NCBI GenBank assembly: GCA_027490055.1
Contig: JAIXYV010000091.1
Location: 1 to 35,788, forward strand
DNA from: Bacteroidota bacterium
Lineage (GTDB): Bacteria > Bacteroidota > Bacteroidia > NS11-12g > UBA955
Length of the DNA: 35,788 nt
Direction: 5' to 3'
Part shown: positions 6,339-20,525 of the stretch, piece by piece
Numbering within the stretch: the stretch's first letter is position 1
Layout of the letters: every line of letters begins with the position of its first letter
The notes under the pieces: model-generated
What the model saw: the letters and a program-made list of their open reading frames with translations, nothing else
Database searches by the model: none
What the model was told of the DNA's origin: nothing
Position numbers and translations under genes: made by a program

Positions 6339-7031
6339 ATGATGAAATGCATTATCATTGATGACAACGAGATTGCTCTGCTAGCCACCAAACAATGCGC
6401 CAGCAAGGTTGACACATTAAATATTGTAGGGACATTTAACGATGCCATACAGGCATTATCCTATATCACCTCTAACCCGGTTGATTTAGTGTTCCTCGAC
6501 ATCGAAATGCCCGAGTTAAATGGCATGGAATTTATCAGAGCCCTCAGTCAACCTCGTCCAATGATTATTCTCACCACTTCTCATACCGAGTTTGCCCTGG
6601 AAGCTTACGAACAAAATGTACTCGACTACCTCGTAAAACCTATTACTTTACCGCGTTTTATCACGGCTGTTAACAAAGCTCAGTCTGCAGCAGAGAAACA
6701 TAAACTTGATCATAGTGATGATGAAACGCTTTTCATCAAAAAAGGCAATATTATCATTAGAGTTAACAAATCCGATATCCTTTGGATAGAAGGTCTGGGG
6801 GATTATGTAACCCTTAACACTGAAAAAGAAAAATTCGTGGTCCACTCCACCATGCACGCCATGGAACAGAAATTCTCATCAAAAGAATTCCTTCGAGTAC
6901 ACCGCTCTTTTATCATCCGTATCGATAAAATAAACAATATTGAAGACAACTGTATCTCTTACTTCGACAAATTCATTCCTATCGGAAAAACATACAGAGA
7001 CACGGTCTACAAACGCCTCAATCTGCTATAG
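6339..7031 (+). CDS. LytTR-family two-component response regulator
   Basis: 230 residues. N-terminal receiver (about 1-120) with IIDDNE acidic pocket, phospho-Asp54 in VFLDIEMPELNG, a Thr of the ILTTS motif and Lys in YLVKPI. C-terminal LytTR DNA-binding domain (about 135-230) with ILWIEGLGDYV, FLRVHRSFIIR and IPIGKTYRD. It is the usual AgrA/LytR-type transcription factor layout. It follows the hybrid kinase by 20 bases on the same strand, so the pair is probably one operon and one pathway: kinase HPt His947 to Asp54 here. Two tandem ATG codons (6339 and 6342) make the exact start uncertain by one residue. Targets cannot be read from the sequence. Confidence 0.93.
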   Translation: MMKCIIIDDNEIALLATKQCASKVDTLNIVGTFNDAIQALSYITSNPVDLVFLDIEMPELNGMEFIRALSQPRPMIILTTSHTEFALEAYEQNVLDYLVKPITLPRFITAVNKAQSAAEKHKLDHSDDETLFIKKGNIIIRVNKSDILWIEGLGDYVTLNTEKEKFVVHSTMHAMEQKFSSKEFLRVHRSFIIRIDKINNIEDNCISYFDKFIPIGKTYRDTVYKRLNLL

Positions 7032-7080
7032 CAGACCTATTTTCCGTTAATCTAAAAAAAGAGGGCATTTTCCGAAATTC

Positions 7081-7121
7081 TGTGAATCATCATCGAATTA
7101 ATCAGAAATGATAAATTCACA
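7081..7121 (+). promoter_or_regulatory. Imperfect inverted repeat just upstream of an orphan promoter
   Basis: Arms TGTGAAT (7081-7087) and ATTCACA (7115-7121) pair perfectly. Inner arms ATCAT (7089-7093) and ATGAT (7108-7112) extend the symmetry to 12 pairs around a 14-base centre. It abuts a perfect -7 box at 7126, so an operator for that promoter is plausible. It could also be a hairpin in the tail of the LytTR regulator transcript. Confidence 0.4.
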
Positions 7122-7125
7122 CCCC

Positions 7126-7133
7126 TACTTTTG
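7126..7133 (+). promoter_or_regulatory. Orphan -7 promoter box
   Basis: TACTTTTG matches TAnnTTTG exactly. No -33 TTTG is evident at the proper distance. No credible plus-strand gene follows; the next element is a terminator hairpin at 7165. Confidence 0.4.
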
Positions 7134-7138
7134 TATCA

Positions 7139-7198
7139 TTAAATAAAATTTATATTGTGAAAAGATTGGAAACTGTTATGCGGTTTCCAATTTTTTTT
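7139..7198 (+). ncRNA. Candidate short RNA bounded by promoter box and terminator
   Basis: If transcription starts about 6 bases after the -7 box at 7126-7133 and stops in the T-run at 7191-7198, the product is about 60 nt: a short AT-rich leader followed by a 9-bp hairpin and U-tail. No open frame with a stop lies inside it. This is inferred from layout only; the hairpin may simply be the terminator of the LytTR gene. Confidence 0.25.
7165..7198 (+). terminator. Rho-independent terminator
   Basis: Perfect 9-bp stem ATTGGAAAC (7165-7173) and GTTTCCAAT (7183-7191) with a 9-base loop, followed by eight T (7191-7198). Strong on the plus strand, ending the kinase/LytTR unit or the candidate short RNA. 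Read on the minus strand it has only CTTTTC after the stem, so it is weaker for the respiratory operon that ends at 7211. Confidence 0.85.
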
Positions 7199-7210
7199 GT
7201 CTCAAACTTT

Positions 7211-8272
7211 CTAGTTTTTCATAGAACGCAGCTTTTCAATATTGACTATTGTAATAGTGCTGCCTTTAATTTCTACGATGCCTTCATCTTTAAAGTCTGT
7301 CAGCGTCCTGATCAATGTCTCAGTTGCCGTGCCTGCGATATGCGCTAAATCCTCTCTGGAGATTGGAAAACTAAAAATTTCATTATCCGATTTACCATAA
7401 CGATCCTTCAGCATCAATAAACTTTCAGACACTTTCTTTCTTACGCTATCGTAGGCTATTTTAAGCAATCGTTCTTCCTTTTCTTTCACCTCTTTACTTA
7501 GCAATTTCATAAAAGTATTTGCCACATCTCTGTTCTGGTAGATCAACTTAAAGAAATCGTCTTTCGGAATTAATTTTAATACCGTTTCTTCCATTGCAAT
7601 GGCTTCGTCATCATAAGCATCGTTTTCAAACAAGGTGACATAGCCAAAAAACTCACCTTCATTATACAAGCCTGTTATCAGCTCTTTGTCCTGCTTATTA
7701 TTCTTTACTGTCTTTACCTTGCCTTTCTCGATGTAAAACAGATAAAGTGGTGTATTGCTTTCTGAATAGATGATATCCTTCTTTTTGTAGGTCTTAGTCT
7801 TATTATTGACATCAATTTTTGTAAACTCTTCTATTGTTTTAACCTGCTTGATGAAATTCTCAAAACCTTCAGGACTGTTACTAAAATTATGCGACTGCAT
7901 GAGACTTGATTTTTTAAGCCTGGTATCTACAGCACTTAAAAGCTCTACATCATCAAATGGTTTTGTCACATAATCATCTGCACCCAGCTCCATGCCTTTT
8001 CTCACATCTGCACGATCTGCCTTAGCGGTCAGAAAGATAAATGGAATATGGTTGGTGTTGGGATCGCGGTTCAACATATGTAAAACGCCGTAGCCATCCA
8101 GCTCAGGCATCATAATATCACAAATTATCAGCTCGGGTGTCTTTAGTTGTGCCTTAATTACACCTTCTTTACCATTACTCGCAGTTTCAACATGGTGACC
8201 GGCAAGTGAAAGTATTTCAGAGGTGTTTTCCCTCATGTCGTCGTTGTCTTCTATCAATAAAATATTAGCCAT
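7211..8272 (-). CDS. Response regulator with receiver fused to Crp/Fnr-type DNA-binding protein
   Basis: 353 residues. Receiver at 1-120: acidic residues Glu8, Asp9 and Asp11, phospho-Asp52 in ICDIMMPELDG, Thr82 and Lys104. A cyclic-nucleotide-binding fold follows at about 145-270 (YIEKGKVK, GLYNEGEFFGYV). A Crp-type winged helix-turn-helix lies at about 275-353 (ISREDLAHIAGT, with ETLIR in the recognition helix where Fnr has ETISR). The only Cys is Cys51 in the receiver, so it cannot hold an Fnr-style iron-sulfur cluster; the signal should come by phosphorylation. It starts 2 bases after the PAS kinase stop, and both close the cbb3 operon. Functionally it resembles FixJ and FixK joined. The two TGAC-N4-GTCA sites before ccoS are natural candidate targets. 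Architecture is certain; role in oxygen control is inferred. Confidence 0.92.
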   Translation of the reverse strand: MANILLIEDNDDMRENTSEILSLAGHHVETASNGKEGVIKAQLKTPELIICDIMMPELDGYGVLHMLNRDPNTNHIPFIFLTAKADRADVRKGMELGADDYVTKPFDDVELLSAVDTRLKKSSLMQSHNFSNSPEGFENFIKQVKTIEEFTKIDVNNKTKTYKKKDIIYSESNTPLYLFYIEKGKVKTVKNNKQDKELITGLYNEGEFFGYVTLFENDAYDDEAIAMEETVLKLIPKDDFFKLIYQNRDVANTFMKLLSKEVKEKEERLLKIAYDSVRKKVSESLLMLKDRYGKSDNEIFSFPISREDLAHIAGTATETLIRTLTDFKDEGIVEIKGSTITIVNIEKLRSMKN

Positions 8273-8274
8273 AA

Positions 8275-9510
8275 TTAAATTGGAAATTTGAGTGTAAATG
8301 TAGTACCTTTTTCGGGAATACTCTTAAAGTTTATTTCGCCTTTCAACATCTCAACATACTTTTTTACAATGTTTAAACCTAAACCTGTGCCCTGAATGTT
8401 GCCGATATTATTGGCTCTGTAAAAGCGCTCGAAAATATGCGCCTGATCTTTCAAAGGAATACCTATTCCCTGATCTTTGATTTCTATCGTTAGAAAATTA
8501 AAATCGCGTTTTGCCTTGATTTCAATTAAAGTATTTTCGTTAGAGTACTTAATGGCATTGCTTAACAAATTCAACAGAATATTCTTTAATACTCTCCTAT
8601 CAATAAAAATCTGATCGTTCGTTTGCAGTCCAGTATAGATAAATTTCTGACCAGCCTTAGCGATGCCTTTTATTTCATCCAGTATTTCGTTGATTGCGGC
8701 ATTCAAAAAGATATTTTCAGGATTCGCCATTACCACCCCTTCTTCGAGTTTATCTAAAGATAAAAAATCATTTAAGATATCCGTCAGATGATTCACCGAA
8801 CTCTTTACCCTGTCGATGTGTTTAAACATCTTTTCTTTATCCATGCTTTCAGCATATTTGCCTGATAGAGACACCGAAGACATAATGGTGGCAAGTGGTG
8901 TTCTGAACTCATGCGATGCAGTACTGATAAACCTGGACTTAAGATTATTCAATTCTTTTTCTTTCTCCAGCGCCAGATCAACTTCCTTTTTGGACTCTGT
9001 TAACTTCCTGATCATTTCTGCGAGTTCGAGCGTTCTTTCCTGAACTTTTTGCTCAAGTTCGAGATTGAGTTTAGACAGCTGGAAACTGGTTTTCTTCAAC
9101 AATTCATTTGCTTCTTTCAATTCATCATCTTTCTTTTTCCGTTCGGAAATATCAATAACAAAAGCGACAACGAGCATATCAGAATTCGAACGAACATAAC
9201 TCAGACTGATTTCAACCGGAAATTCGCTACCATCTTTTCTCGCAGCCGATAAATCGCGACCAGCTCCCATGTTTCGTGGCGATGGTGATTTATAATAATT
9301 ATCTCTGTATGCCGTATGCTGAGGGCGGTATCTCGAAGGAATCAGATCCTCTATCTTCAGTTCATACATCTCATCCTCTGTATAGCCAAACATCTGTAAG
9401 GCTTTAGGATTCGATAGAATAAGACGACCATCAGAGTTGCTCACGATTATCCCTTCGGTCGCATCAATGAACATGCCCTGCAATATTTCGTTATAATTGA
9501 TCTTATTCAT
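8275..9510 (-). CDS. PAS-domain sensor histidine kinase, FixL-like, in the cbb3 operon
   Basis: 411 residues, soluble. PAS domain at about 8-125, coiled coil about 125-195, HisKA with ASHEFRTPL and His200, then HATPase with LLNLLSNAIKYS, DQGIGI and GTGLGLNIV. No receiver of its own. In the PAS domain, His65 (YRPQHTAY) and Arg85 (MGAGRD) are 20 residues apart, the same spacing as the haem-ligand His200 and distal Arg220 of Bradyrhizobium FixL. However, this His...GAGR pattern is also common in PAS domains with no proven haem, so haem binding is only possible. It starts 1 base after the UreH/TauE-like gene and is followed 2 bases later by the REC/Crp regulator, its likely phosphorylation partner. 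Oxygen or redox sensing is inferred from context. Confidence 0.9.
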   Translation of the reverse strand: MNKINYNEILQGMFIDATEGIIVSNSDGRLILSNPKALQMFGYTEDEMYELKIEDLIPSRYRPQHTAYRDNYYKSPSPRNMGAGRDLSAARKDGSEFPVEISLSYVRSNSDMLVVAFVIDISERKKKDDELKEANELLKKTSFQLSKLNLELEQKVQERTLELAEMIRKLTESKKEVDLALEKEKELNNLKSRFISTASHEFRTPLATIMSSVSLSGKYAESMDKEKMFKHIDRVKSSVNHLTDILNDFLSLDKLEEGVVMANPENIFLNAAINEILDEIKGIAKAGQKFIYTGLQTNDQIFIDRRVLKNILLNLLSNAIKYSNENTLIEIKAKRDFNFLTIEIKDQGIGIPLKDQAHIFERFYRANNIGNIQGTGLGLNIVKKYVEMLKGEINFKSIPEKGTTFTLKFPI

Positions 9511-10648: not shown

Positions 10649-12055
10649 TTATTTGTAAATGGGACCTAAGAAGTTAGTTTTGACACGCTCGATTTTTTTA
10701 CCATCGAGATAGACATCTACCACTACTTTGGTTTTATGACCAGTCATCTGACTGTCTGGAACGATCAGGAAAAACTGACCGTCGTATTTGGATTCAGGTT
10801 TAACATGGATATGATTCCCTACAATTTTAATCACTGCACCCTCCGGTTTCACAACTTGTAACTCGAGTTTAACATCGCCATAAGTTTTGTTAATAGTTTT
10901 AATGAGATACAAATTCTGGTAATGGGTGCTATCTAATTGCTGATATAAAATACTGGGAGCTCTGAGTATTGTTGTTTCGATGTTTTCGCGACTGGCCAAA
11001 AGGAAAGTCAACAACCCTAAAAGGATAATCAAAACAACTGTATAGGCTTTAGTTCTCCAGTTGAAGCCTTTTGTTTTACCTACAGATATAGCATTCTCGC
11101 TGGCATAACGAATCAGGCCTTTTGGCTTGTCCATTTTCACCATGATCTCGTCGCAGGCATCGATACAAGCTGTGCAGTTAACACATTCCAGCTGTGTGCC
11201 GTTTCTGATATCTATGGCAGTTGGGCAAACTCTGACGCACATTCCACAATCAACGCAATCGCCTTTAGTGGTATCTATAACCCCTTTTTTCTGGTGACCG
11301 CGAGGTTCGCCACGTTTATAATCATAAGAAATTACAATGGAGTTCTTATCCAGCATAACACCTTGCAAACGACCATAAGGACAAGCGATGATACACACCT
11401 GCTCTCTGAACCAGGCGAAAACAAAGTAAAAGGCACCACTGAAAATAAGTATCATTGAAAATCCTTTCACGTGTTGTGATACAGGTTCGGTAATAATTTT
11501 ATACAACTCGTCTACACCAATGATATACGACAAGAAGGTATTGGAAATAAGAAACGCAATCGCATAAAAAACTGAATGTTTAAGCGTTCTTTTAAAGATC
11601 TTTTCGCCAGTCCATGGACTAGCTTTTAATTTAATTTGTTGAGAGCTGTTTCCATCAATCCAGTATTCAATGCGTCTGAATACCATTTCGAGAAATACTG
11701 TTTGTGGGCAAACCCAGCCGCAAAAAATACGACCGAATGCCACTGTAAACAGAACGATAAAGAGCATAAAGGTAATCATGGCTACGCCAAAAATCACCAG
11801 ATCCTGAGGCCAGAAAATGGCACCAAAGAGAATAAACTTACGCTCCAGGATGTTGAACAGGAACATTGGGTGACCATTGACCTTAAGAAAAGGCAATCCA
11901 AATAATACTGTCAGATAAAAAATAGTAATAAATGTGCGGGCGTTATAAAAGTTGCCTTTGGGCTGCCATGGGAAAACCCATTTGCGTTTACCATCTTTAC
12001 CTATAGTACCTATGGAGTCTCTGTACGACTGATCAACATGTTCCTGTCCATTCAT
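10649..12055 (-). CDS. ccoG: CcoG/FixG/RdxA polyferredoxin, cbb3 oxidase maturation
   Basis: 468 residues. Membrane segments come first (FITIFYLTVLFGLPF and others), with FGRIFCGWVCPQTVF, the conserved FixG Cys-Pro motif. Then come two 4Fe-4S ferredoxin motifs (CVDCGMCVRVCP and CVNCTACIDACD), a further helix near LLGLLTFLLA, and a C-terminal Ig-like domain. CcoG is reported to reduce Cu(II) to Cu(I) for the oxidase CuB centre. It lies 19 bases after ccoP and 14 bases before ccoH. All cluster cysteines are present and the length is normal. The start ATG at 12055 is followed by the family-typical DQSYRDSIGT lead. Confidence 0.95.
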   Translation of the reverse strand: MNGQEHVDQSYRDSIGTIGKDGKRKWVFPWQPKGNFYNARTFITIFYLTVLFGLPFLKVNGHPMFLFNILERKFILFGAIFWPQDLVIFGVAMITFMLFIVLFTVAFGRIFCGWVCPQTVFLEMVFRRIEYWIDGNSSQQIKLKASPWTGEKIFKRTLKHSVFYAIAFLISNTFLSYIIGVDELYKIITEPVSQHVKGFSMILIFSGAFYFVFAWFREQVCIIACPYGRLQGVMLDKNSIVISYDYKRGEPRGHQKKGVIDTTKGDCVDCGMCVRVCPTAIDIRNGTQLECVNCTACIDACDEIMVKMDKPKGLIRYASENAISVGKTKGFNWRTKAYTVVLIILLGLLTFLLASRENIETTILRAPSILYQQLDSTHYQNLYLIKTINKTYGDVKLELQVVKPEGAVIKIVGNHIHVKPESKYDGQFFLIVPDSQMTGHKTKVVVDVYLDGKKIERVKTNFLGPIYK

Positions 12056-12074: not shown

Positions 12075-13256
12075 TTATTTTACTTCGATATTTTTTGTAG
12101 AGTCAACAATTGCTGTTGCAGCGCTATCTATAGCTGCACCTGCAGTTTCTTCGAAAAGATTACCTTCCGGAGCTTTTTGATTCGGAGGATTAGTGCCTTT
12201 GAATGTATGAATATAACTGATGACGTTTTGAATGTCTACAGGACTTAATTCATCCTTCCAGGATTTCATCCCTTTAGTTGTACCATTTTTAACTGTTTTG
12301 AACAGATCACCTGGTTTACCACCGTAAATCCAGTAATTGTCGGCAAAGTTAGGACCGATGCCACCCTGACCCTTATCGCCGTGACAAACGACACAGTTTT
12401 TAACAAAAATTTCGCCACCCTTTGCTAACTTATCACTTTCGGTTGCGAACACCGCATTGGTCTCATCCACGTTCAAAGCCATTTTATTTCTATAGGCCGC
12501 AACACTGGCTTCGGCTTCGGCAATCTCAGTATTGTATTCTTCCTGACTGGATTTAAAAGATCCGGTAACATGGTAACCAATCAGATAAATAACACCTGAA
12601 ATAATTGTGAAATAGAAGCCGTATTTCCACCATGGTGGTAAGTCGTTATCCAACTCACGGATACCATCGTAATTGTGATCCAGCATTACATCTTTATCTG
12701 TTTCAACTGGTTTAACACCAAAGATTTTTCTTGAAATGAAAAGACTGAAACTAGATTGAGCTGGTTTCTCGTTATGCGCAACAGCAGAGGCTGCTTCGCG
12801 TTTTACAATAATTCTTAAGATCATCAGACACAACCAAAGAATTACGAATAACTCGAGCAACAGCACGATAAACAATGAATAGAAAGCTAATGGATGCATT
12901 CCACCAATGGCTGTATCGACGTACATACTTTCTTTAGTCTCAGCTGCTGCCTGAGCAAAAGAACTCTGAGCACCGAAGATAAAAAGAGCAGCTACAACAG
13001 CTTGGATATTTCTTGTACTTAATACCTCTCTTACTTTAGTTTTCACAGAGGTTCTGAGCACTGCCGATAAAATGACAATGACAAACAACAATACGCCTGT
13101 TAAAACACCCATAGAGATAAAAAGAGGGTTATTACTGGTTGCTTCAGGGGCTTTTTCTGCTGCAGTTGCAACGGCTGCTGCGGCATCCTGAGCGTATGCA
13201 TTGACTCCAGTCAAAAACAAGGAGCCTATTGATATTTTTTTTACTAAATTGATCAT
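12075..13256 (-). CDS. ccoP: CcoP, cbb3 oxidase cytochrome c subunit with a single haem
   Basis: 393 residues. The FixP N-domain motif (NYDGIRELDNDLPPWWKYGFY) with its membrane helix is clear from about residue 195. One c-type haem site follows, CVVCH with Cys288, Cys291 and His292; the distal Met is probably in GMKSWKDEL. Classical proteobacterial CcoP has two haem motifs; only one exists here, which is usual in Bacteroidota. Before the FixP part lie about 190 extra residues with a signal-like start, two or three further hydrophobic segments and a second Ala-Gln signal-like stretch (AALFIFGAQSSFAQ). This long Ala-rich lead is odd. The C-terminal tail is Ala/Asp-rich. Situated 7 bases after ccoQ and 19 before ccoG. 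Confidence 0.93.
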   Translation of the reverse strand: MINLVKKISIGSLFLTGVNAYAQDAAAAVATAAEKAPEATSNNPLFISMGVLTGVLLFVIVILSAVLRTSVKTKVREVLSTRNIQAVVAALFIFGAQSSFAQAAAETKESMYVDTAIGGMHPLAFYSLFIVLLLELFVILWLCLMILRIIVKREAASAVAHNEKPAQSSFSLFISRKIFGVKPVETDKDVMLDHNYDGIRELDNDLPPWWKYGFYFTIISGVIYLIGYHVTGSFKSSQEEYNTEIAEAEASVAAYRNKMALNVDETNAVFATESDKLAKGGEIFVKNCVVCHGDKGQGGIGPNFADNYWIYGGKPGDLFKTVKNGTTKGMKSWKDELSPVDIQNVISYIHTFKGTNPPNQKAPEGNLFEETAGAAIDSAATAIVDSTKNIEVK

Positions 13257-13263
13257 AATTGGT

Positions 13264-13434
13264 TTATTGGTTTTTGTTATCGAAAGGTAATTGTTCTATT
13301 TCTTTCAGGTAGTTTTTATCTGTTTTCAGCACAAACCAAAGCAGGCCGACGAAGAACAGAAAAAAGATAAACAAGGAGGTCAGCGGATAGATGCTAACGC
13401 CAGAGATATTTTCGAGATAATGTATAAATTTCAT
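13264..13434 (-). CDS. ccoQ: CcoQ-like small cbb3 oxidase subunit
   Basis: 56 residues read directly from the minus strand. It begins MKFIHYLENISGVSIYP, continues with one membrane helix (LTSLFIFFLFFVGLLWFVL), and ends in a charged tail KTDKNYLKEIEQLP. Size, single helix and the position between ccoNO and ccoP identify it as the CcoQ/FixQ equivalent, which stabilises the complex in other bacteria. The stop is 7 bases before the ccoP start. A hairpin-forming repeat precedes it (13450-13486). Sequence similarity of CcoQ proteins is low, so the call rests partly on position. Confidence 0.88.
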   Translation of the reverse strand: MKFIHYLENISGVSIYPLTSLFIFFLFFVGLLWFVLKTDKNYLKEIEQLPFDNKNQ

Positions 13435-13518: not shown

Positions 13519-15657
13519 TTAATTCTGAGCAGCTTGAGGTTCGGCACTGATATCTTTACCCAGTCGTTGCAGATAGGCAATCACTGCGATAATTTCTTTA
13601 TTTGGCATGGCTTTGATTTTGTCTTTGTTAAGATCAGCAACAATTTCATTTGCCTGCTTCATCAGGTCATCGTTAGCCAGTTTTTCGTAGCCTTTTTCGT
13701 ATGGCACACCTAAAGTTTGCATGGCTTTAATTTTAGCCTCAGTGATGTCCAAATCGATATCGTTTTCGAATAACCATTGATATCTCGGCATGATAGAACC
13801 TGGAGAGGTTGCGCTTGGCTCATACATGTGGTTAAAGTGCCATGAGTTACTTCTGCCAATTTTTGCAGTACCCTCACGCGCTAAATCCGGACCAGTACGT
13901 TTACTGCCCCATTGGAATGGATGGTCGTACACGAATTCACCAGCCTTAGAATATTCGCCATATCTGGCTGTTTCACTTCTAAACGGACGAACCATTTGAG
14001 AGTGGCAGGTATAACAACCTTCTCGGACATAGATATCACGACCCTGAAGTTCGAGTGGTGTGTATGGTTTTACACTGGCGATTGTAGGCACATTGCTCTT
14101 AATTAAGAACGATGGTATAAACTCGACAGCGCCACCTATTAAAATAACAATTAAAGAGAAAACTAATAACTGAACTGGTTTACGTTCAACCCATCTGTGC
14201 CAGTGCTCAGTGTGGTGAGGCACATACTCAGCAGACAATGGTGCAGCTTCAGCTTCTTCGTTATCTACAGCGACCCCAGACTTGATGGTTTTAATCAGAT
14301 TGTAAACCATGATGATTGCACCAATAAAATACAGAGTACCTCCAATAGAACGCAATAAGTAGAATGGTTTCAGGTGAACAACAGTTTCAAGGAACTGGTA
14401 TTTTAAAGTACCATCATCTGTAAACTCTTTCCACATTAAACTTTGTGTCCAGCCTGCCCAGTACATTGGAACGGCATATAACAAAATACCAAGTGTACCT
14501 AACCAGAAGTGTGTATTAGCAAGTGATTTGCTGTATAGAGTAGTTTTGAATAATTTAGGAATCAGGAAGTACAGGATACCAAAGGTTAAGAAACCATTCC
14601 ATCCCAAAGCACCAACGTGAACGTGTGCTACGATCCAATCGGTAAAGTGAGCGATGGCGTTAACATTTTTGAAAGACAGCATCGGACCTTCGAAAGTGGC
14701 CATACCATAGGCAGTAACCGCTACCACCATGAATTTAAGCACCACATCTTCTCTTACTTTATCCCAAACACCTCTAAGTGTTAACAGACCATTGATCATA
14801 CCACCCCATGATGGCGCAATCAACATTACAGAGAAAACAACACCAAGTGACTGAGCCCAGTCTGGCAATGAGGTATAAAGTAAGTGGTGAGGACCAGCCC
14901 AAATGTACAAGAAAATCAAAGCCCAGAAGTGAATGATAGACAATCTGTAAGAATATACTGGTCTGTCTGCTGCTTTAGGTAAGAAGTAATACATTAAACC
15001 CAGGTAAGGCGTTGTCAGGAAGAATGCAACCGCATTGTGACCATACCACCACTGTACCAAAGCATCTTGCATACCAGCATACCAGCTGTAACTTTTAATC
15101 CAGCTATATGGCAATTCAAAAGAGTTTACCAGGTGCAATACTGCTACAGTAACAAAAGTAGCAATGTAGAACCAGATAGCCACGTAAAGGTGACGTTCTC
15201 TTCTTTTAAGAATAGTACCAAACATGTTCCAGCCAAATACGACCCATATAATAGTGATCAGAATATCAATTGGCCATTCCAGTTCGGCGTACTCTTTACC
15301 AGTTGTAAAACCAGCTAAAAGTGTAACAGCCGCCAGAACAATGATTAACTGCCAGCCCCAGAAGTGAATCTTACTAAGGGTGTCGTTAAACATTCTGGTC
15401 TTACACAATCTTTGGAGTGAATAATACACACCCATAAAAATACCATTACCCACAAAAGCGAAAATAATCGCATTGGTGTGTAAGGGTCTCGTGCGACCAA
15501 AGGTGGTTTGTGCCAAATCCAGATTTAGATCCGGGAAAACTAATTGAAAGGCTACCAGTAATCCTACCAGCATCCCTACTAAAGCCCATAACATGGTTGC
15601 GTAGGCAAACCATTTTACAATCTTGTTGTCATAATGAAAGGTTTCTTTATTATTCAT
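13519..15657 (-). CDS. ccoNO: Fused CcoN-CcoO, cbb3-type cytochrome c oxidase subunits I and II
   Basis: 712 residues. The first ~490 are the twelve-helix haem-copper subunit CcoN, with haem ligand regions RPLHTNAIIFAF, WYGHNAVAFFL, the GPHHLLYTSLP motif (CuB histidines) and DWIVAHVHVGALGWNG. The C-terminal ~200 are CcoO: one membrane anchor (LLVFSLIVILIGGAVEFIP), the LQGRDIYVREGCYTCHSQ haem c site (Cys548, Cys551, His552) and a C-terminal cytochrome fold. It is the catalytic core of a high-affinity terminal oxidase that reduces oxygen and pumps protons. In Proteobacteria the two are separate genes; fusion is the normal state in Bacteroidota. It starts 18 bases after ccoS. No residue of the active site appears missing. 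Confidence 0.97.
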   Translation of the reverse strand: MNNKETFHYDNKIVKWFAYATMLWALVGMLVGLLVAFQLVFPDLNLDLAQTTFGRTRPLHTNAIIFAFVGNGIFMGVYYSLQRLCKTRMFNDTLSKIHFWGWQLIIVLAAVTLLAGFTTGKEYAELEWPIDILITIIWVVFGWNMFGTILKRRERHLYVAIWFYIATFVTVAVLHLVNSFELPYSWIKSYSWYAGMQDALVQWWYGHNAVAFFLTTPYLGLMYYFLPKAADRPVYSYRLSIIHFWALIFLYIWAGPHHLLYTSLPDWAQSLGVVFSVMLIAPSWGGMINGLLTLRGVWDKVREDVVLKFMVVAVTAYGMATFEGPMLSFKNVNAIAHFTDWIVAHVHVGALGWNGFLTFGILYFLIPKLFKTTLYSKSLANTHFWLGTLGILLYAVPMYWAGWTQSLMWKEFTDDGTLKYQFLETVVHLKPFYLLRSIGGTLYFIGAIIMVYNLIKTIKSGVAVDNEEAEAAPLSAEYVPHHTEHWHRWVERKPVQLLVFSLIVILIGGAVEFIPSFLIKSNVPTIASVKPYTPLELQGRDIYVREGCYTCHSQMVRPFRSETARYGEYSKAGEFVYDHPFQWGSKRTGPDLAREGTAKIGRSNSWHFNHMYEPSATSPGSIMPRYQWLFENDIDLDITEAKIKAMQTLGVPYEKGYEKLANDDLMKQANEIVADLNKDKIKAMPNKEIIAVIAYLQRLGKDISAEPQAAQN

Positions 15658-15675: not shown

Positions 15676-15828
15676 TTAATTTTTGATGTCGTTATCTTCG
15701 AACAGAATTCTAACCGATGGCGTGTAGGTATCTTTGAACTGTCCTTTGCGGGAAGCCTTGATAAACATATACAGGAAAAACAGTGCTAACAGTAGACTTG
15801 CGCTGATTAAAATGATCATTATTTCCAT
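15676..15828 (-). CDS. ccoS: CcoS cbb3 oxidase maturation protein
   Basis: 50 residues read from the minus strand: MEIMIILISASLLLALFF is a single membrane helix. The CcoS hallmark follows, KGQFKDTYTPSVRILFED (family pattern GQFDD...TPxxRxLFDD). CcoS is needed for cofactor insertion into CcoN. The ATG at 15828 is chosen because a -7 promoter box lies just upstream (15833-15840); Met4 is an alternative. It is the first gene of the operon, 18 bases before ccoNO. Confidence 0.93.
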   Translation of the reverse strand: MEIMIILISASLLLALFFLYMFIKASRKGQFKDTYTPSVRILFEDNDIKN

Positions 15829-15832
15829 GCCT

Positions 15833-15840
15833 CAAAATTA
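15833..15840 (-). promoter_or_regulatory. -7 promoter box of the cco operon
   Basis: Minus strand TAATTTTG matches TAnnTTTG exactly and ends 4 bases before the ccoS ATG. No TTG/TTTG -33 element occurs 17-23 bases upstream (the minus strand there reads TCATAATGCC). This is the pattern expected of an activator-dependent promoter, and Crp/Fnr-like sites lie in the right place. Confidence 0.65.
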
Positions 15841-15863: not shown

Positions 15864-15875
15864 TGACCGCAGTCA
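15864..15875. promoter_or_regulatory. Crp/Fnr-type operator, proximal site
   Basis: TGACCGCAGTCA, a palindrome TGAC-N4-GTCA, the geometry of Fnr/Dnr-family sites (TTGAy-N4-rTCAA) without the outer T/A. Its centre is about 42 bases upstream of the start predicted from the -7 box, the class II activator position. Probable binding site of the REC/Crp regulator encoded at the end of the same operon (inference). Confidence 0.55.
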
Positions 15876-15886
15876 GTAAAAAAAGG

Positions 15887-15898
15887 TGACAATGGTCA
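15887..15898. promoter_or_regulatory. Crp/Fnr-type operator, distal site
   Basis: TGACAATGGTCA, the same TGAC-N4-GTCA palindrome as the proximal site. The centres are 23 bases apart, close to two helical turns, so both could be bound on one DNA face. The N4 core differs (AATG against CGCA), which argues that the arms are the conserved part. Confidence 0.55.
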
Positions 15899-16100: not shown

Positions 16101-18512
16101 TCAAGCCTTTAAAGCCCCTAATTGTCGGCGAGCAATCACCGCAGTTAGCACCCAGGTTAAAATCAACATAGTAAACGAACTACTAGGCATTAGAATAGCC
16201 GCTGTTAAAGGCGATAACTGAGCTGTTATTGCATAATACAAGCCGATGATATTATACACCAAAGAAAAGGCAAAACTTATAATAATCACCCAGCGTGAAG
16301 CTTTGATGAACTTTAGTAACTGAGGGAAACCAGATAATGCAGGAGCGGTTACCAAAACATCACAGGCAGGAAAAAAAGCATTTTCGTTATCCGCCACAGA
16401 AATGGCCACATCGGCTTCTTTAAGCGCCGGAGCATCGTTTAAGCCATCCCCTGTCATGCAGACAATTTTACCTTCCGACTTCAGGCGTTTTACCAAAGCC
16501 ACTTTATTTTCAGGCGTCTGATGAATCAGAGTACTTGTAAATGGTGCGGCATTAATCTCTTTATTGAGTTCGTTATCACCACTGGACAAATACAAATCAT
16601 ACCCATCGTGTTGTAATGCTTTGGTAATTGCATTGGTCTCAGGTCTGATTTTATGAATCAACACAAAATAGCCTCTGTACTCTCCCTCTACTTCGACATG
16701 TAAAACACCGTGTTTTAGGGTATCTGGCTGCTCTACATTTAAGAAAGCGGCAGAACCTACTTTAAATGTTTTTCCGCCTATCCTGCCCTGCAAACCTTTT
16801 CCCACCACATCTGTGTAGGCTGAAAGCTGTTTATCGGATAAGTGATAAAACAATTTGCTGATGGCAGCACTGTATGGGTGTACAGATTGATGGCACAAAA
16901 GACCAATACTCGATAACTCCTCAGAATTTAAATTGCTTAAATTTTCAATTTCAAAGTTTTTGTTATCAGTAAGTGTTCCCGTTTTATCAAATACAATGGT
17001 GTTACAGGTAGCCAGTGTGCTTAAAGTATTCTTGTTTTTAACAAACATGCCTCTGCTTTTAAGCGTGCGCAATAAATGGCCATTGGCAAAAGTAGTTGCC
17101 AGCAGAAGGATACAAGGGCAGGCAACAATCAATACACTGGTTAATGATTTGAAGGCTTCTGTTAATCCGCCAACATTATACTGATACACAAAAGCAAATG
17201 CGCCTACCAAAAGCAAGCCGAGGGTGAAGTAATAATTAATCTTTTCGGTGAGTGAATTATCAATTTCTTCTTTATCCTTTTCTACGGCCCATAACTTAAC
17301 TAAGCGACTATTATCCGTTGAAGCAATCAGCTCCATTCTAACGGCATTACCACTTATTTTCGCTCCGGCATAAATCTTCTCTCCGCGCTTTAGAGCAACA
17401 GGCTTAGATTCGCCAGTAATAAAACTATAATCGACCGTAGCATAGTCAGAGATCAGCAAAGAATCGGCTGGCAGAAGTTCTCCATTTCGAAGTTCAATCA
17501 CATCGTGTGCTCTGAGTTGGCGGATATTAACCACTTTTAAGACACCATCCAAAATTTGACGGGCAGAAAGCGGGAAATACGACTTGTAATCGCGATCAAA
17601 AGTGAGAGAATGATAGGTTAAATCCTGGAAGTATCTGCCGGTTAAAAGCAGAAAAACTATCCCTGTCATGCTATCAAAGTAACCCGACTGGTGATTAATG
17701 AACAGTTCGTATAAACTTCGCACAAAAGTAGCCACCACCGCAAGGGCGATTGGCAAATCTATATTCAGGGTTCTTTGTCTGATTGCTTTGTAGGAACTTT
17801 CGAAAAACTCGCTGCCACAGTAAAATAAAACAGGCAAAGACAAGCCTAAACTTATAAAGTCAAACCATCTTTTAAGGACCAGACTTCCGGCATCCAGAGA
17901 CAAACCCAGATACTCCGGAAAACTTAGCATCATGATATTACCGAAACAAAATCCAGCGATACCTATCTTAATAGCTCTGCTTGATATTTTATTTTTCTTA
18001 ACCCCTGCATCATTAGAAAGCGTTAAGTCGGGTTTATAACCCAGGTGGTATAGCAAAGCAATAATTTCAGACAATTTTACTGCCTGTTTTTTAACTGTTA
18101 CTAATAGTTCTTTATTGAAGAAATCGACTCTTGAAGATAGGATACCGCTGTTAAATCTCTCCAGTCTTTCGAGCAAAAAAATGCAGGAATTGCAGTGCAT
18201 GCCCGGAATGATAAATTTAAATTGTACGGCATCCCCCTGAGAAAACACGACGAACTTATCGACTGTGCCAGCTTCGTTGATATAGTCAAACTCGCCCTTG
18301 TCTGTTGGTTCAGGTGTTAAACCTTTCCCCTCATTGTAATAATCACACATGTTATTTTCGTTGAGCAACTGATAAACAGCAGCGCAACCAGAACAGCAGA
18401 AATTATTGCCATTTTCTGTAATTTTATGACTGTCGCAAGGCAATCCACAGTGCAGACATAAAACTTCAGAGTTCCTTTTAAGTTCGGGCGATTTAAGAGC
18501 AGGAATTTCCAT
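16101..18512 (-). CDS. ccoI: CcoI/FixI copper-exporting P1B-type ATPase for cbb3 oxidase assembly
   Basis: 803 residues. N-terminal zinc-finger-like lead (CLHCGLPC, FCCSGCAAVY), then an HMA domain with the copper motif GMHCNSC. The membrane core has the CPC translocation motif (IVACPCILLLATT). Catalytic parts follow: actuator TGES, phosphorylation motif FDKTGTLTDN, SVHP nucleotide-binding motif and MTGDGLNDAPAL hinge. About eight membrane helices. The N-terminal cysteine lead and HMA arrangement are typical of CcoI rather than general CopA. It pumps Cu(I) to the periplasmic side for the CuB site of CcoN. It starts 11 bases after the universal stress gene and ends 272 bases before ccoS, which has its own promoter. 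Confidence 0.95.
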   Translation of the reverse strand: MEIPALKSPELKRNSEVLCLHCGLPCDSHKITENGNNFCCSGCAAVYQLLNENNMCDYYNEGKGLTPEPTDKGEFDYINEAGTVDKFVVFSQGDAVQFKFIIPGMHCNSCIFLLERLERFNSGILSSRVDFFNKELLVTVKKQAVKLSEIIALLYHLGYKPDLTLSNDAGVKKNKISSRAIKIGIAGFCFGNIMMLSFPEYLGLSLDAGSLVLKRWFDFISLGLSLPVLFYCGSEFFESSYKAIRQRTLNIDLPIALAVVATFVRSLYELFINHQSGYFDSMTGIVFLLLTGRYFQDLTYHSLTFDRDYKSYFPLSARQILDGVLKVVNIRQLRAHDVIELRNGELLPADSLLISDYATVDYSFITGESKPVALKRGEKIYAGAKISGNAVRMELIASTDNSRLVKLWAVEKDKEEIDNSLTEKINYYFTLGLLLVGAFAFVYQYNVGGLTEAFKSLTSVLIVACPCILLLATTFANGHLLRTLKSRGMFVKNKNTLSTLATCNTIVFDKTGTLTDNKNFEIENLSNLNSEELSSIGLLCHQSVHPYSAAISKLFYHLSDKQLSAYTDVVGKGLQGRIGGKTFKVGSAAFLNVEQPDTLKHGVLHVEVEGEYRGYFVLIHKIRPETNAITKALQHDGYDLYLSSGDNELNKEINAAPFTSTLIHQTPENKVALVKRLKSEGKIVCMTGDGLNDAPALKEADVAISVADNENAFFPACDVLVTAPALSGFPQLLKFIKASRWVIIISFAFSLVYNIIGLYYAITAQLSPLTAAILMPSSSFTMLILTWVLTAVIARRQLGALKA

Positions 18513-18523
18513 AATCAGTAATT

Positions 18524-19348
18524 TTAGGCCACTACTAAAACAGGCGACTGACTGAATTTAAGGGCGTATCTGGAGAAACGTTTGTGAAAGATATTTTGCC
18601 ATACACTGTAATGATGAGCATAAACAACCAGCACATCAGGCTTCATTTTTTTAACGGCCTTTTCGAATTCTACTTCTTTATCCAATCCCATTACTTGTTT
18701 AAGATCCGTATGCTGATTAGGGAACATTTTTTTAAGTGCAAATCTGAAAGCAGCAGCATTTTTATCAACGGCATCATCATAATGCGAGACATTCAATGCG
18801 GTAAGATTGGTATCATCATCTCCCAACATATCTCTTAACACATTCAACTGATGCACCTCTGCAGATTTGCCATCCCATCCGTAAACCACTGAATTCAGTT
18901 TAAGCGCTTTGTAATTAAGTGGAATAACCAGCATCGGACTTTTAACTTTTCCTATTAGCGTTGTGCAGGTATCTCCAAAAATCACTTTATCCATGCCTGT
19001 GCGTTTTTTCACACCCAGAACTGTTAGCCATGGATTGAGTTCTTCAATTTTAGAAGACATCATCGGCACAAGGAAGCCATAGTCGACTTCGAAAGCCACC
19101 GGAACACCCGAAAATTTCTTTTTCAAATAGGTGATACCTCTTCGCATGAGAGCAGAGGCTTTTTTGATATCCAAATCCGGAGAGTAGGTATACACAGTTT
19201 CTGAATCTGCTAACACAGAACTTGAAACGACGTGGTAGATAAACAATTTCGATCCTGTTTTTTGCGCAATGGCTGCCGCAACTTCGAGAGAGTTTCTGGA
19301 AGATAGACTGAAATCGTGGGCTGCAAAAACTATCTTGTTAGGTTTCAT
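18524..19348 (-). CDS. Universal stress protein, tandem UspA domains
   Basis: 274 residues. Two UspA-type halves (about 1-145 and 150-274). The first begins KIVFAAHDFSLSSRNSLEVA and ends SPMLVIPL; the second ends SPVLVVA. The ATP-binding GxxGxxx(9)GS pattern is not clearly preserved in either half, so it may not bind ATP. It is the promoter-proximal gene of a two-gene unit with ccoI (11-base gap), suggesting expression when the high-affinity oxidase is built, for example under low oxygen. Usp genes beside cbb3 assembly genes are common in other bacteria. Specific function unknown. Confidence 0.85.
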   Translation of the reverse strand: MKPNKIVFAAHDFSLSSRNSLEVAAAIAQKTGSKLFIYHVVSSSVLADSETVYTYSPDLDIKKASALMRRGITYLKKKFSGVPVAFEVDYGFLVPMMSSKIEELNPWLTVLGVKKRTGMDKVIFGDTCTTLIGKVKSPMLVIPLNYKALKLNSVVYGWDGKSAEVHQLNVLRDMLGDDDTNLTALNVSHYDDAVDKNAAAFRFALKKMFPNQHTDLKQVMGLDKEVEFEKAVKKMKPDVLVVYAHHYSVWQNIFHKRFSRYALKFSQSPVLVVA

Positions 19349-19418: not shown

Positions 19419-19514
19419 TGACTAGCAACAAGGCAAAAACTGATCTCCATCATTTTTTATATCCCTCAAAACCACGAATAAATCTTTTCTATAATTTGAA
19501 AATCGGCAAAACTT

Positions 19515-19574: not shown

Positions 19575-20525
19575 ATGGAAATCAATTTGGAAGAACAATT
19601 TCAGGAAAAAATCGATCAGGAAATAAAGATCGAACCTAGAGACTGGATGCCGGAAAAATACAGAAAGACCCTATTAAGGCAAATTTCTCAGCATGCACAC
19701 AGCGAAATCGTGGGTATGTTGCCAGAAGGCAATTGGATTACCAGAGCTCCAAACCTAAGAAGAAAAGTAGCTTTACTTGCCAAGGTGCAAGATGAAGCCG
19801 GTCACGGTCTCTACCTCTACTCTGCTGCAGAAACTCTGGGCATGAGTCGCGATGAGATGTTAGCTGAACTTCACAGTGGCAAAGCCAAATACAGCAGTAT
19901 CTTTAACTACCCTACCCTAACATGGGCTGATATGGGTGCTATAGGCTGGTTAGTAGACGGTGCTGCTATCATGAATCAGGTGCCTTTGTGCCGTACCAGT
20001 TACGGTCCATATGCCAGAGCCATGGTGAGAGTTTGTAAGGAAGAAAGTTTCCACCAAAGACAAGGTTATGAAATCATGCTGACCCTTTCTAAAGGAACAG
20101 CTGAACAGAAAGCCCTGGCTCAGGATGCTTTGAACCGCTGGTGGTGGCCGAGTATCATGATGTTCGGACCAAACGACGACAAGTCGCCGAACTCTGCTCA
20201 GAGCATGAAATGGAAAATTAAACGTTTCTCTAACGACGAGCTAAGACAGAAATTTGTTGATGTTACTGTTTCTCAAGCCGAAATATTGGGATTAACCATT
20301 CCGGATAAAGATTTAAAATGGAATGAGGCCAGAGGTCATTATGATTTCGGCACCATTAACTGGGATGAATTCAACGAAGTTGTTGCCGGTAACGGTCCTT
20401 GTAACAAACAGCGTTTAAAAGCGCGTGTTGACGCATGGGAAAAAGGCACATGGGTAAGAGAAGCTGCAATTGCCTTTGCAGAAAAAAGAGCTAAGAGAAA
20501 TAACAACAGTACAGAAGCTGCATAA
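19575..20525 (+). CDS. paaA: PaaA, phenylacetyl-CoA 1,2-epoxidase catalytic subunit
   Basis: 316 residues, ferritin-like four-helix protein. The di-iron ligand motifs are visible as [10 protein letters not shown] (about residue 75-85) and [12 protein letters not shown] (about 155-165). Family landmarks [33 protein letters not shown] and [12 protein letters not shown] are intact. It forms the active core with PaaC and inserts an oxygen atom into the ring of phenylacetyl-CoA, the first committed step of aerobic phenylacetate breakdown. It heads a three-gene run with paaB 2 bases on. No paaD, paaE or downstream ring-opening genes are in the window, so the electron supply must be encoded elsewhere or the role is different. 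Confidence 0.95.

Follow-up and report, generated by a model that had tools for sequence, protein, structure and literature searches.

The closest described relatives of the system considered here belong to the FixL-FixJ-FixK2 cascade of rhizobia, which begins with a heme-PAS kinase, ends in a Crp/Fnr protein acting on a box of the TGA-N6-TCA type and has the cbb3 oxidase among its targets. Within this cascade FixJ is a receiver joined to a LuxR-type helix-turn-helix (HTH), and FixK is a Crp/Fnr protein that carries no N-terminal receiver. The FixK box is given, in an extract of PMC5582078, as TTGA-N6-TCAA, with one site 40.5 bp from the transcription start. The window analysed here, a stretch of 35,788 nucleotides from a Bacteroidota bacterium of the UBA955 group within NS11-12g (assembly GCA_027490055.1, contig JAIXYV010000091.1, positions 1 to 35,788, forward strand), carries at the end of a run of cbb3 genes a FixL-type PAS histidine kinase gene followed by the gene for a one-piece regulator. 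Unlike the rhizobial cascade, the receiver and the Crp part lie in one protein, hereafter the fused regulator or fusion, with no separate FixJ and FixK; unlike the FixK box, the associated Bacteroidota box has A or C more often than T as its first base, and two such boxes stand 22-23 bp apart. In the hFixL-FxkR-FixK system of Rhizobium leguminosarum, too, a FixL-type sensor feeds a regulator that is not FixJ (PMC7888657, in part), but there a separate FixK is still needed. With the iron-sulfur (4Fe-4S) protein Fnr, the fused regulator shares the Crp/Fnr fold and HTH as well as, in sister genera, the same operon slot and the same boxes, although it lacks the CxxC...C set and the Cys before xIP and has a receiver in front.

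The likely explanation of the pair is that a FixL-like kinase directly drives a phosphorylation-activated, Fnr-like activator in a positive loop on cbb3. The two genes would form a low-oxygen two-component switch whose kinase, to judge from its sequence and predicted fold, binds heme in a FixL-type PAS domain. On the precedent of FixL, and with the catalytic residues intact, departure of O2 from the heme would lead to autophosphorylation on His200 and transfer of the phosphate to Asp52 of the regulator. The phosphorylated receiver would then allow the Crp/Fnr part to bind the two boxes that are seen between ccoI and ccoS, and the bound regulator would switch on ccoS-NO-Q-P-G-H-DsbD2; read-through along the observed gene order, if the run is co-transcribed, would reach the kinase and regulator genes themselves and so make the loop positive. 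One transcription factor would cover the two steps that FixJ and FixK divide between them. FixL, Crp/Fnr regulators and the control of cbb3 are known separately, and their joined form was not found in the open literature searched, where no paper on receiver-Crp regulators or on this module was recognised; subscription journals lay mostly outside that search, and a mention in response-regulator censuses is possible. The accessible part of a study of the Crp/Fnr meta-regulon (PMC8510549) holds nothing on receivers.

The open reading frame (ORF) list and Pfam place the kinase and regulator genes at the end of a ccoNO-ccoP-ccoG-ccoH-DsbD2 run on one strand, with intergenic gaps of 2, 1 and 1 bp between regulator, kinase, DsbD_2 and ccoH. 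This bears out the preliminary description of the locus, which had placed a PAS kinase and a 353-residue receiver, cNMP-fold and Crp protein 1-2 bp apart behind ccoH and a UreH-like gene, the latter now assigned by Pfam to DsbD_2 (PF13386). The kinase consists of PAS_9 (residues 19-123), HisKA (191-258) and HATPase_c (304-410), and its His200, within SHEFRTPL, is invariant in six aligned kinases of the genus. Against 177,635 PDB sequences, the best match of the PAS domain is FixL (1d06, E 4.6e-16); 14 matches at or below 1.3e-7 are FixL, the heme domains of DOS/DosP/YddU and 10jx, an entry titled heme-binding PAS, and the next match lies at 1.3e-3. The predicted PAS structure, with a predicted local distance difference test (pLDDT) score of 95.5, has FixL at the top of both its Foldseek list and its VIA-align list (1dp6, Z 17.2, 1.8 A over 113). 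In alignments with the PDB sequences, His65 falls on the heme ligand of FixL and Arg85 on its distal, O2-contacting Arg, residues numbered His200 and Arg220 in the B. japonicum protein. Both are invariant in the six genus kinases, as in O2-binding FixL. Closest to FixL/DosP and with its His on F-alpha, the domain is probably of the FixL/DosP heme type, and the kinase a probable heme oxygen sensor with predicted heme binding, which the preliminary description had not proposed. DOS/DosP of E. coli belongs to the same cluster as FixL and also has its His on F-alpha, a residue described as the main determinant of heme binding and as conserved without change across about 60% of the FixL/DosP cluster (PMC10468136, in part), although the output of DosP is a phosphodiesterase (PMC4263535, in part).

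The heme-type His is widely retained: of the 94 kinases that could be aligned, 85 have it (a further 11 could not), as do all 33 alignable kinases of the loci flagged as lying near cco genes, among which the flag of L139 is false and refers to a distant oxidase. Two further flagged loci, L152 and L160, could not be aligned, yet a neighbouring kinase in each has the heme-type His. A separate PAS alignment of the window with 43 of 55 candidate kinases, taken in order of identity, shows the His as invariant, but L144 and L196, next in rank and without the His, were omitted from it, so that this alignment is no independent count of the His; the count over 94 kinases is independent. A natural control is provided by two close copies of the pair within the genus, G009:C42 (L033) and G014:C3 (L038), with 84% and 80% identity and no cco gene in the fetched stretch: in their kinases the heme-type His is replaced by Asn or a gap, and by Glu, respectively. 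In a relay variant found upstream of the fused regulator at six loci (L121, L133, L136, L137, L152 and L160, including Pontibacter and Adhaeribacter), a kinase of 513-529 residues with two heme-type His PAS domains is followed by a lone receiver of 148-150 residues, a second kinase without an alignable heme-type PAS and then the fused regulator.

The regulator itself comprises Response_reg (residues 4-115, 1.8e-27), cNMP_binding (160-246, 5.7e-17) and HTH_Crp_2 (280-350, 3.5e-16). Its cNMP-binding fold and Crp HTH place it in the Crp/Fnr superfamily, its receiver sets it apart from FixK, and the presence of HTH_Crp_2, with no LuxR domain reported by Pfam, sets it apart from FixJ. Across 30 aligned fusions Asp52 and Lys104 of the receiver are invariant, as are Glu318 and Arg322 of the recognition helix. 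In cAMP-type Crp the phosphate cassette contains Arg-Ser; the corresponding region here, compared by eye, reads ENDAYDDEAIA. An Fnr-type cysteine set, with its N-terminal cluster and central Cys, is missing, as had been stated before, since the only Cys of the protein is Cys51. This residue (codon 8120-8122) directly precedes the phospho-acceptor Asp52, is invariant in 33 aligned rows and nearly so in the alignment of 30 fusions, and is a possible redox handle. An AlphaFold model of the whole regulator has a predicted template modelling score of 0.40 and two stretches with pLDDT below 50, and carries no claim.

In a quick tree, built from the 118 fusion genes minus ten loci and one short row, the Crp parts of the fused proteins cluster in a single large group that excludes the Fnr proteins of sister genera (Shimodaira-Hasegawa-like approximate likelihood ratio test, 99), with one long-branch plain Crp inside it. 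On this grouping, an origin of the fusion within the genus from the local Fnr is unsupported. The earlier phrase that FixJ and FixK are merged here therefore holds only as a functional description, and a joining of a FixJ with a FixK is unsupported, the output of FixJ being of LuxR type and the Crp parts forming their own group.

The same pair recurs beside cbb3 genes across the phylum, and the link is real. Among 59 genomes, that of the window (G000; 3.0 Mb, 121 contigs) and its relatives, 37 hold a full-length fusion, with 41 genes, and of the 118 fusion genes in 121 loci, 103 have a PAS kinase gene immediately upstream in the same orientation (one contig was counted twice, as L034 and L119), so the fusion is not a chance joining. 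A sample of 395 evenly drawn Bacteroidota genomes has the fusion in 56, with 61 genes; some of the searches of genome sets, including the fusion and Fnr scans of this sample, scored a few best candidates per genome, and their counts are lower bounds. The co-occurrence with ccoNO, a check proposed in the preliminary description, is borne out: ccoNO is present in 51 of the 56 fusion genomes and in 176 of the 339 others (Fisher 7.7e-9). Where positions are listed, in a set of 44 genomes that leaves out the window and six fusion genomes with no listed ccoNO position, the fusion lies within 10 kb of ccoNO in 19, against 0.25 expected for 3.5-Mb genomes and even placement; the earlier claim of a compact module leading from a FixL-like kinase to a receiver-Crp protein and tied to cbb3 is supported. 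A scan of GTDB contigs returned at least 589 of 592 stretches encoding relatives, and ccoNO is present in 21 of the best 80 loci, which were kept; among the matches listed, the nearest record is a metagenome-assembled Bacteroidetes bacterium with a regulator 84% identical, and culturable environmental carriers include Dyadobacter sediminis and species of Pontibacter, Chitinophaga and Spirosoma. The pair may stand upstream, downstream, divergent or convergent with respect to cco, so that its place at the 3' end of the operon, noted in the preliminary description, is a trait of this genus and does not extend elsewhere. The label of cco linkage is scattered over the quick tree, and needs a minimum of 17 changes on starred branches, a number that is rough since the fetched stretches are unequal in length and some are cut by contig ends.

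The promoters of these loci contain a recurrent layout, an explicit code that is likewise an addition to the preliminary description. When palindromes were counted upstream of ccoI, ccoNO and HemN (upstreams shorter than 25 bp were left out of palindrome and box counts), CTGA-N6-TCAG was found in 16 of 56 regions, where the remaining upstreams of these loci would predict 1.1. Pairs of TGA-N6-TCA sites are spaced by 22 bp (46 pairs) or 23 bp (10 pairs), with every other spacing below 80 bp occurring five times at most. Such tandem pairs occur in 11 of 29 ccoNO, 7 of 17 ccoI, 2 of 10 HemN and 11 of 41 Usp upstreams, and average at most 0.005 in dinucleotide shuffles; one or more boxes are present at 32, and a perfect pair at 15, of the 34 loci for which a region upstream of ccoI or ccoNO was available. 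The box stands 23 bp from TAnnTTTG, the Bacteroidota -7 element, in 27 cases and, as the farther box, 45-46 bp from it in 37, all remaining distances below 60 bp totalling 19. A partner box at 22-23 bp accompanies 26 of the 33 promoters that show the 23-bp layout, other spacings from 14 to 35 bp occurring once each at most. The same layout stands before other genes of these loci in 16 cases and therefore marks a regulon rather than cco alone.

The box consensus is [AC]TGA[CT]-N4-[AG]TCA[GT], which has the TGA-N6-TCA core and spacing of the FixK/Fnr type, the first T not being favoured. The ccoI-ccoS promoter of the window contains two boxes and TAnnTTTG in a block kept in eight genomes of the genus, two of which carry a single change in the nearer box. 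Assuming a transcription start 4-5 nt past the -7 element, we infer box centres near -41.5 and -64, and the match to a site near -41 depends on this start. The boxes and -7 element of the ccoS-NO promoter point, as was suggested earlier, to a loop built into the operon that it probably controls. Promoters were counted as tandem where box, -7 element and partner box had two mismatches or fewer each, and ccoI or ccoS-NO is preceded by such a promoter in 12 of the 13 linked-fusion genomes (G002 missed the cut-off) and in 5 of 7 with Fnr. L119, on the same contig as G010:C8, and L015 were dropped from the promoter work and from the counts of heme-type PAS within 5 kb given below.

The fused regulator is, on indirect grounds, the probable reader of these boxes: its recognition helix, GTATETLIR, differs little from the one found in the Fnr group, and G000 holds no other match to the Fnr profile at 1e-20; the motif GTATE(T/S)-IR is common to fused and Fnr proteins, in 9 of 10 aligned. 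Over the 59 genomes, 257 composite promoters were found against 37 for the reversed pattern, with means of 4.9 in genomes with the fusion only (34), 4.6 with Fnr only (10), 8.3 with both (3) and 1.7 with neither (12), the difference between either regulator and neither having p 6e-4. G000 has 10 composite promoters against one control, with mixed genes downstream, and some of the 10 are probably due to chance. The nine besides that of the window (L302-L310) lie on C7 (two), C10, C13, C32, C95, C112, C118 and C119, and the first ORFs downstream include, by eye, MBL-fold/rhodanese-like and acetyl-CoA hydrolase-like proteins.

Fusion and cysteine-type Fnr may compete for one slot beside ccoNO. 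By the authors' reading, cbb3 genes are present in 33 of the 59 genomes (G019 split, G012 partial) and Fnr in 13 (G054 truncated; a remote protein of G042 with similar cysteines uncounted), and these assignments underlie the counts of co-occurrence, of composite promoters and of slot sharing. In each of the seven relatives that have cbb3 genes and no fusion there is a Crp/Fnr protein whose sequence shows an N-terminal CxxC and a Cys before xIP, that of G018 missing the third spaced Cys. This Fnr follows a DsbD_2-like gene in G019, G031, G032 and G033, the slot held by the kinase-regulator pair in the window. One or other regulator is present in 33 of 33 genomes with cbb3 genes, against 14 of the 26 in which no ccoNO of cbb3 type was matched (p 9e-6). 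In the 395-genome sample, where Fnr matches are profile matches whose cysteines were not checked individually, a strong match occurs in 51 genomes and lies within 10 kb of ccoNO in 19 of 42 with listed positions. None of the 20 linked-fusion genomes, window included, has a strong Fnr match, against 7 of 31 genomes that have ccoNO and a fusion not known to be linked (p 0.034); 4 of the 19 Fnr-linked genomes hold an unlinked fusion, and no genome with listed positions has both regulators within 10 kb of ccoNO. Mutual exclusion across the phylum is not seen, seven genomes of the sample and three relatives (G014, G024 and G028) holding both, and the exclusion shows only for the slot near ccoNO. 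For Bacteroidota as a whole, it is an evenly balanced proposition that one microaerobic promoter type, twin boxes 22-23 bp apart before a -7 element, is served by two interchangeable sensors that displace each other beside cbb3: either a one-component Fnr with its iron-sulfur cluster, or a heme kinase and its receiver-Fnr partner, where phosphorylation replaces the cluster, the twin boxes suggesting a phosphorylated dimer of dimers.

Several observations weigh against the low-oxygen switch. LOV and other PAS folds follow FixL closely in VIA-align (Z 14-16), and the fold alone therefore would not decide the heme type. Position 85 is Arg in 48 and Met in 19 of the 94 kinases, so that ligand or affinity may vary. 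Moreover, 25 of 116 fusion loci have no PAS with the heme-type His within 5 kb; contig ends truncate four of these, while others lack a neighbouring kinase or have one whose PAS is without the His. In an alternative, the wiring would be as proposed and the signal another one, with the heme PAS reading NO, CO or redox and with cbb3 as one target among Usp, Hsp20 and HemN. In its favour, besides the variation at position 85, the pair adjoins genes for Usp in 39 of 121 loci and Hsp20 in 12 (one member tested), and M95 is found on the distal heme side of E. coli DOS (PMC4263535, in part). Against such a signal stand the invariant His65 and Arg85 of the genus and the strong tie to a high-affinity oxidase, which make it unlikely. 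Position 85 is also Leu in 6 of the 94 kinases, and Met or Leu there is perhaps a change of heme ligand or gas.

Another Crp/Fnr protein might read the boxes, with the module controlling something else and lying beside cco for other reasons. The boxes do not prove binding by the fusion, for they are also present in genomes with a cysteine-type Fnr and no fusion, and 28 of the 735 remaining upstreams in these loci hold tandem pairs. As further points against the switch itself, only two of nine genomes with an unlinked fusion show the full cco promoter layout (G006, with one mismatch each in box and -7 element and no partner, was uncounted), and fusion genomes without ccoNO average 2.5 composite promoters against 6.3 with ccoNO. 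G000, furthermore, has three other Crp-type HTH proteins over the cut-off. These three, however, have a REV(I/V)SR helix, and among the four proteins TETLIR is confined to the fusion; together with its standing as the sole Fnr-profile match, the helix shared with Fnr proteins and the excess of composite promoters in genomes with either regulator, this makes a different reader improbable.

That the pair is a general module hitch-hiking near cco is very improbable, since the 25 of 44 genomes whose fusion lies farther than 10 kb from ccoNO, and the 5 of 56 without ccoNO, are set against linkage far above expectation, in many orders and orientations and scattered over the tree. The preliminary description had taken a fusion lying mostly away from cbb3 genes as a refutation of its proposal; this is literally so for those 25, yet 19 of 44 against 0.25, with ccoNO in 51 of 56, amounts to a real link, and direct control of cbb3 by the FixL-like kinase through the fused regulator is still preferred.

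Features of the window are collected in the table. The run descends on the minus strand from 19348 to 7211 in the order Usp, ccoI, ccoS-like, ccoNO, ccoQ-like, ccoP, ccoG, ccoH, DsbD_2/UreH-like, PAS kinase and regulator, the names ccoI, ccoS and ccoQ having been given by eye and context. Beyond its end lies a convergent gene for a LytTR regulator (6339-7031). The terminator scan of 7000-7300 gave a sole site, on the plus strand, and Rfam gave no match at gathering scores.

Table. Features of the cbb3 run and its promoter region in the window
Feature	Position	Strand	Evidence
One-piece response regulator, REC (Asp52), cNMP-fold and Crp/Fnr HTH, 353 aa	7211..8272	-	ORF, Pfam, alignment
FixL-type PAS histidine kinase, 411 aa; His65 and Arg85 (heme pocket positions), His200 (phospho-acceptor, SHEFRTPL)	8275..9510	-	ORF, Pfam, PDB comparison
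DsbD_2/UreH-like membrane protein of cco operon, 231 aa	9512..10207	-	ORF, Pfam PF13386
ccoH (FixH), 141 aa	10209..10634	-	ORF, Pfam
ccoG	10649..12055	-	TIGR02745, FixG_C
ccoP	12075..13256	-	FixP_N, cytochrome CBB3
56-aa ORF, ccoQ position	13264..13434	-	Inferred from place and hydrophobic stretch
ccoNO, one frame	13519..15657	-	COX1 and FixO, PRK14485
50-aa ORF, ccoS position; start codon 4 nt past -7 element	15676..15828	-	Place
TAATTTTG, putative Bacteroidota -7 element; TAnnTTTG present throughout the 8 genomes aligned from the genus	15833..15840	-	Alignment
Proximal box TGACTGCGGTCA, 23 bp upstream of -7 element	15864..15875	-	Motif scan
Distal box TGACCATTGTCA, 23 bp upstream of proximal box	15887..15898	-	Motif scan
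ccoI-type copper P-type ATPase, DKTGTLTD motif	16101..18512	-	By eye from ORF and context
Universal stress protein (Usp), head of run	18524..19348	-	PF00582
Single TGA-N6-TCA box between Usp gene and divergent gene at 19575	19441..19452	.	Motif scan

Among the recurrent neighbours of the pair is also HemN, an oxygen-independent heme-synthesis enzyme, at 15 of the 121 loci (one member tested, TIGR00538, 432 bits). Two small families, of 126 residues (L144:4551-5030) and 129 residues (L155:10149-10535), adjoin the pair at 26 and 13 of the 121 loci; one member of each was tested and had no Pfam or NCBIfam match. The upstreams of the 126-residue family contain a box in 16 of 19 cases and a tandem pair in 7 of 19. 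At L065 (G027), matches to ccoP, ccoG and ccoI lie beside the pair, and the only ccoNO match of that genome is a distant oxidase. A flavobacterium is described as raising cbb3 and heme synthesis under oxygen limitation (PMC9723704, in part), in a report whose main text has no word beginning Crp or Fnr.

If the proposed switch is correct, Bacteroidota would have a named microaerobic switch together with a cis-code legible in genome sequences, and a Crp/Fnr DNA-binding part would be switched by phosphorylation of a covalently joined receiver. Relatives within the phylum would form natural pairs in which the cbb3 promoter is served either by an iron-sulfur sensor or by a heme kinase with a phosphorylated activator, and the two could be compared on the same operator.

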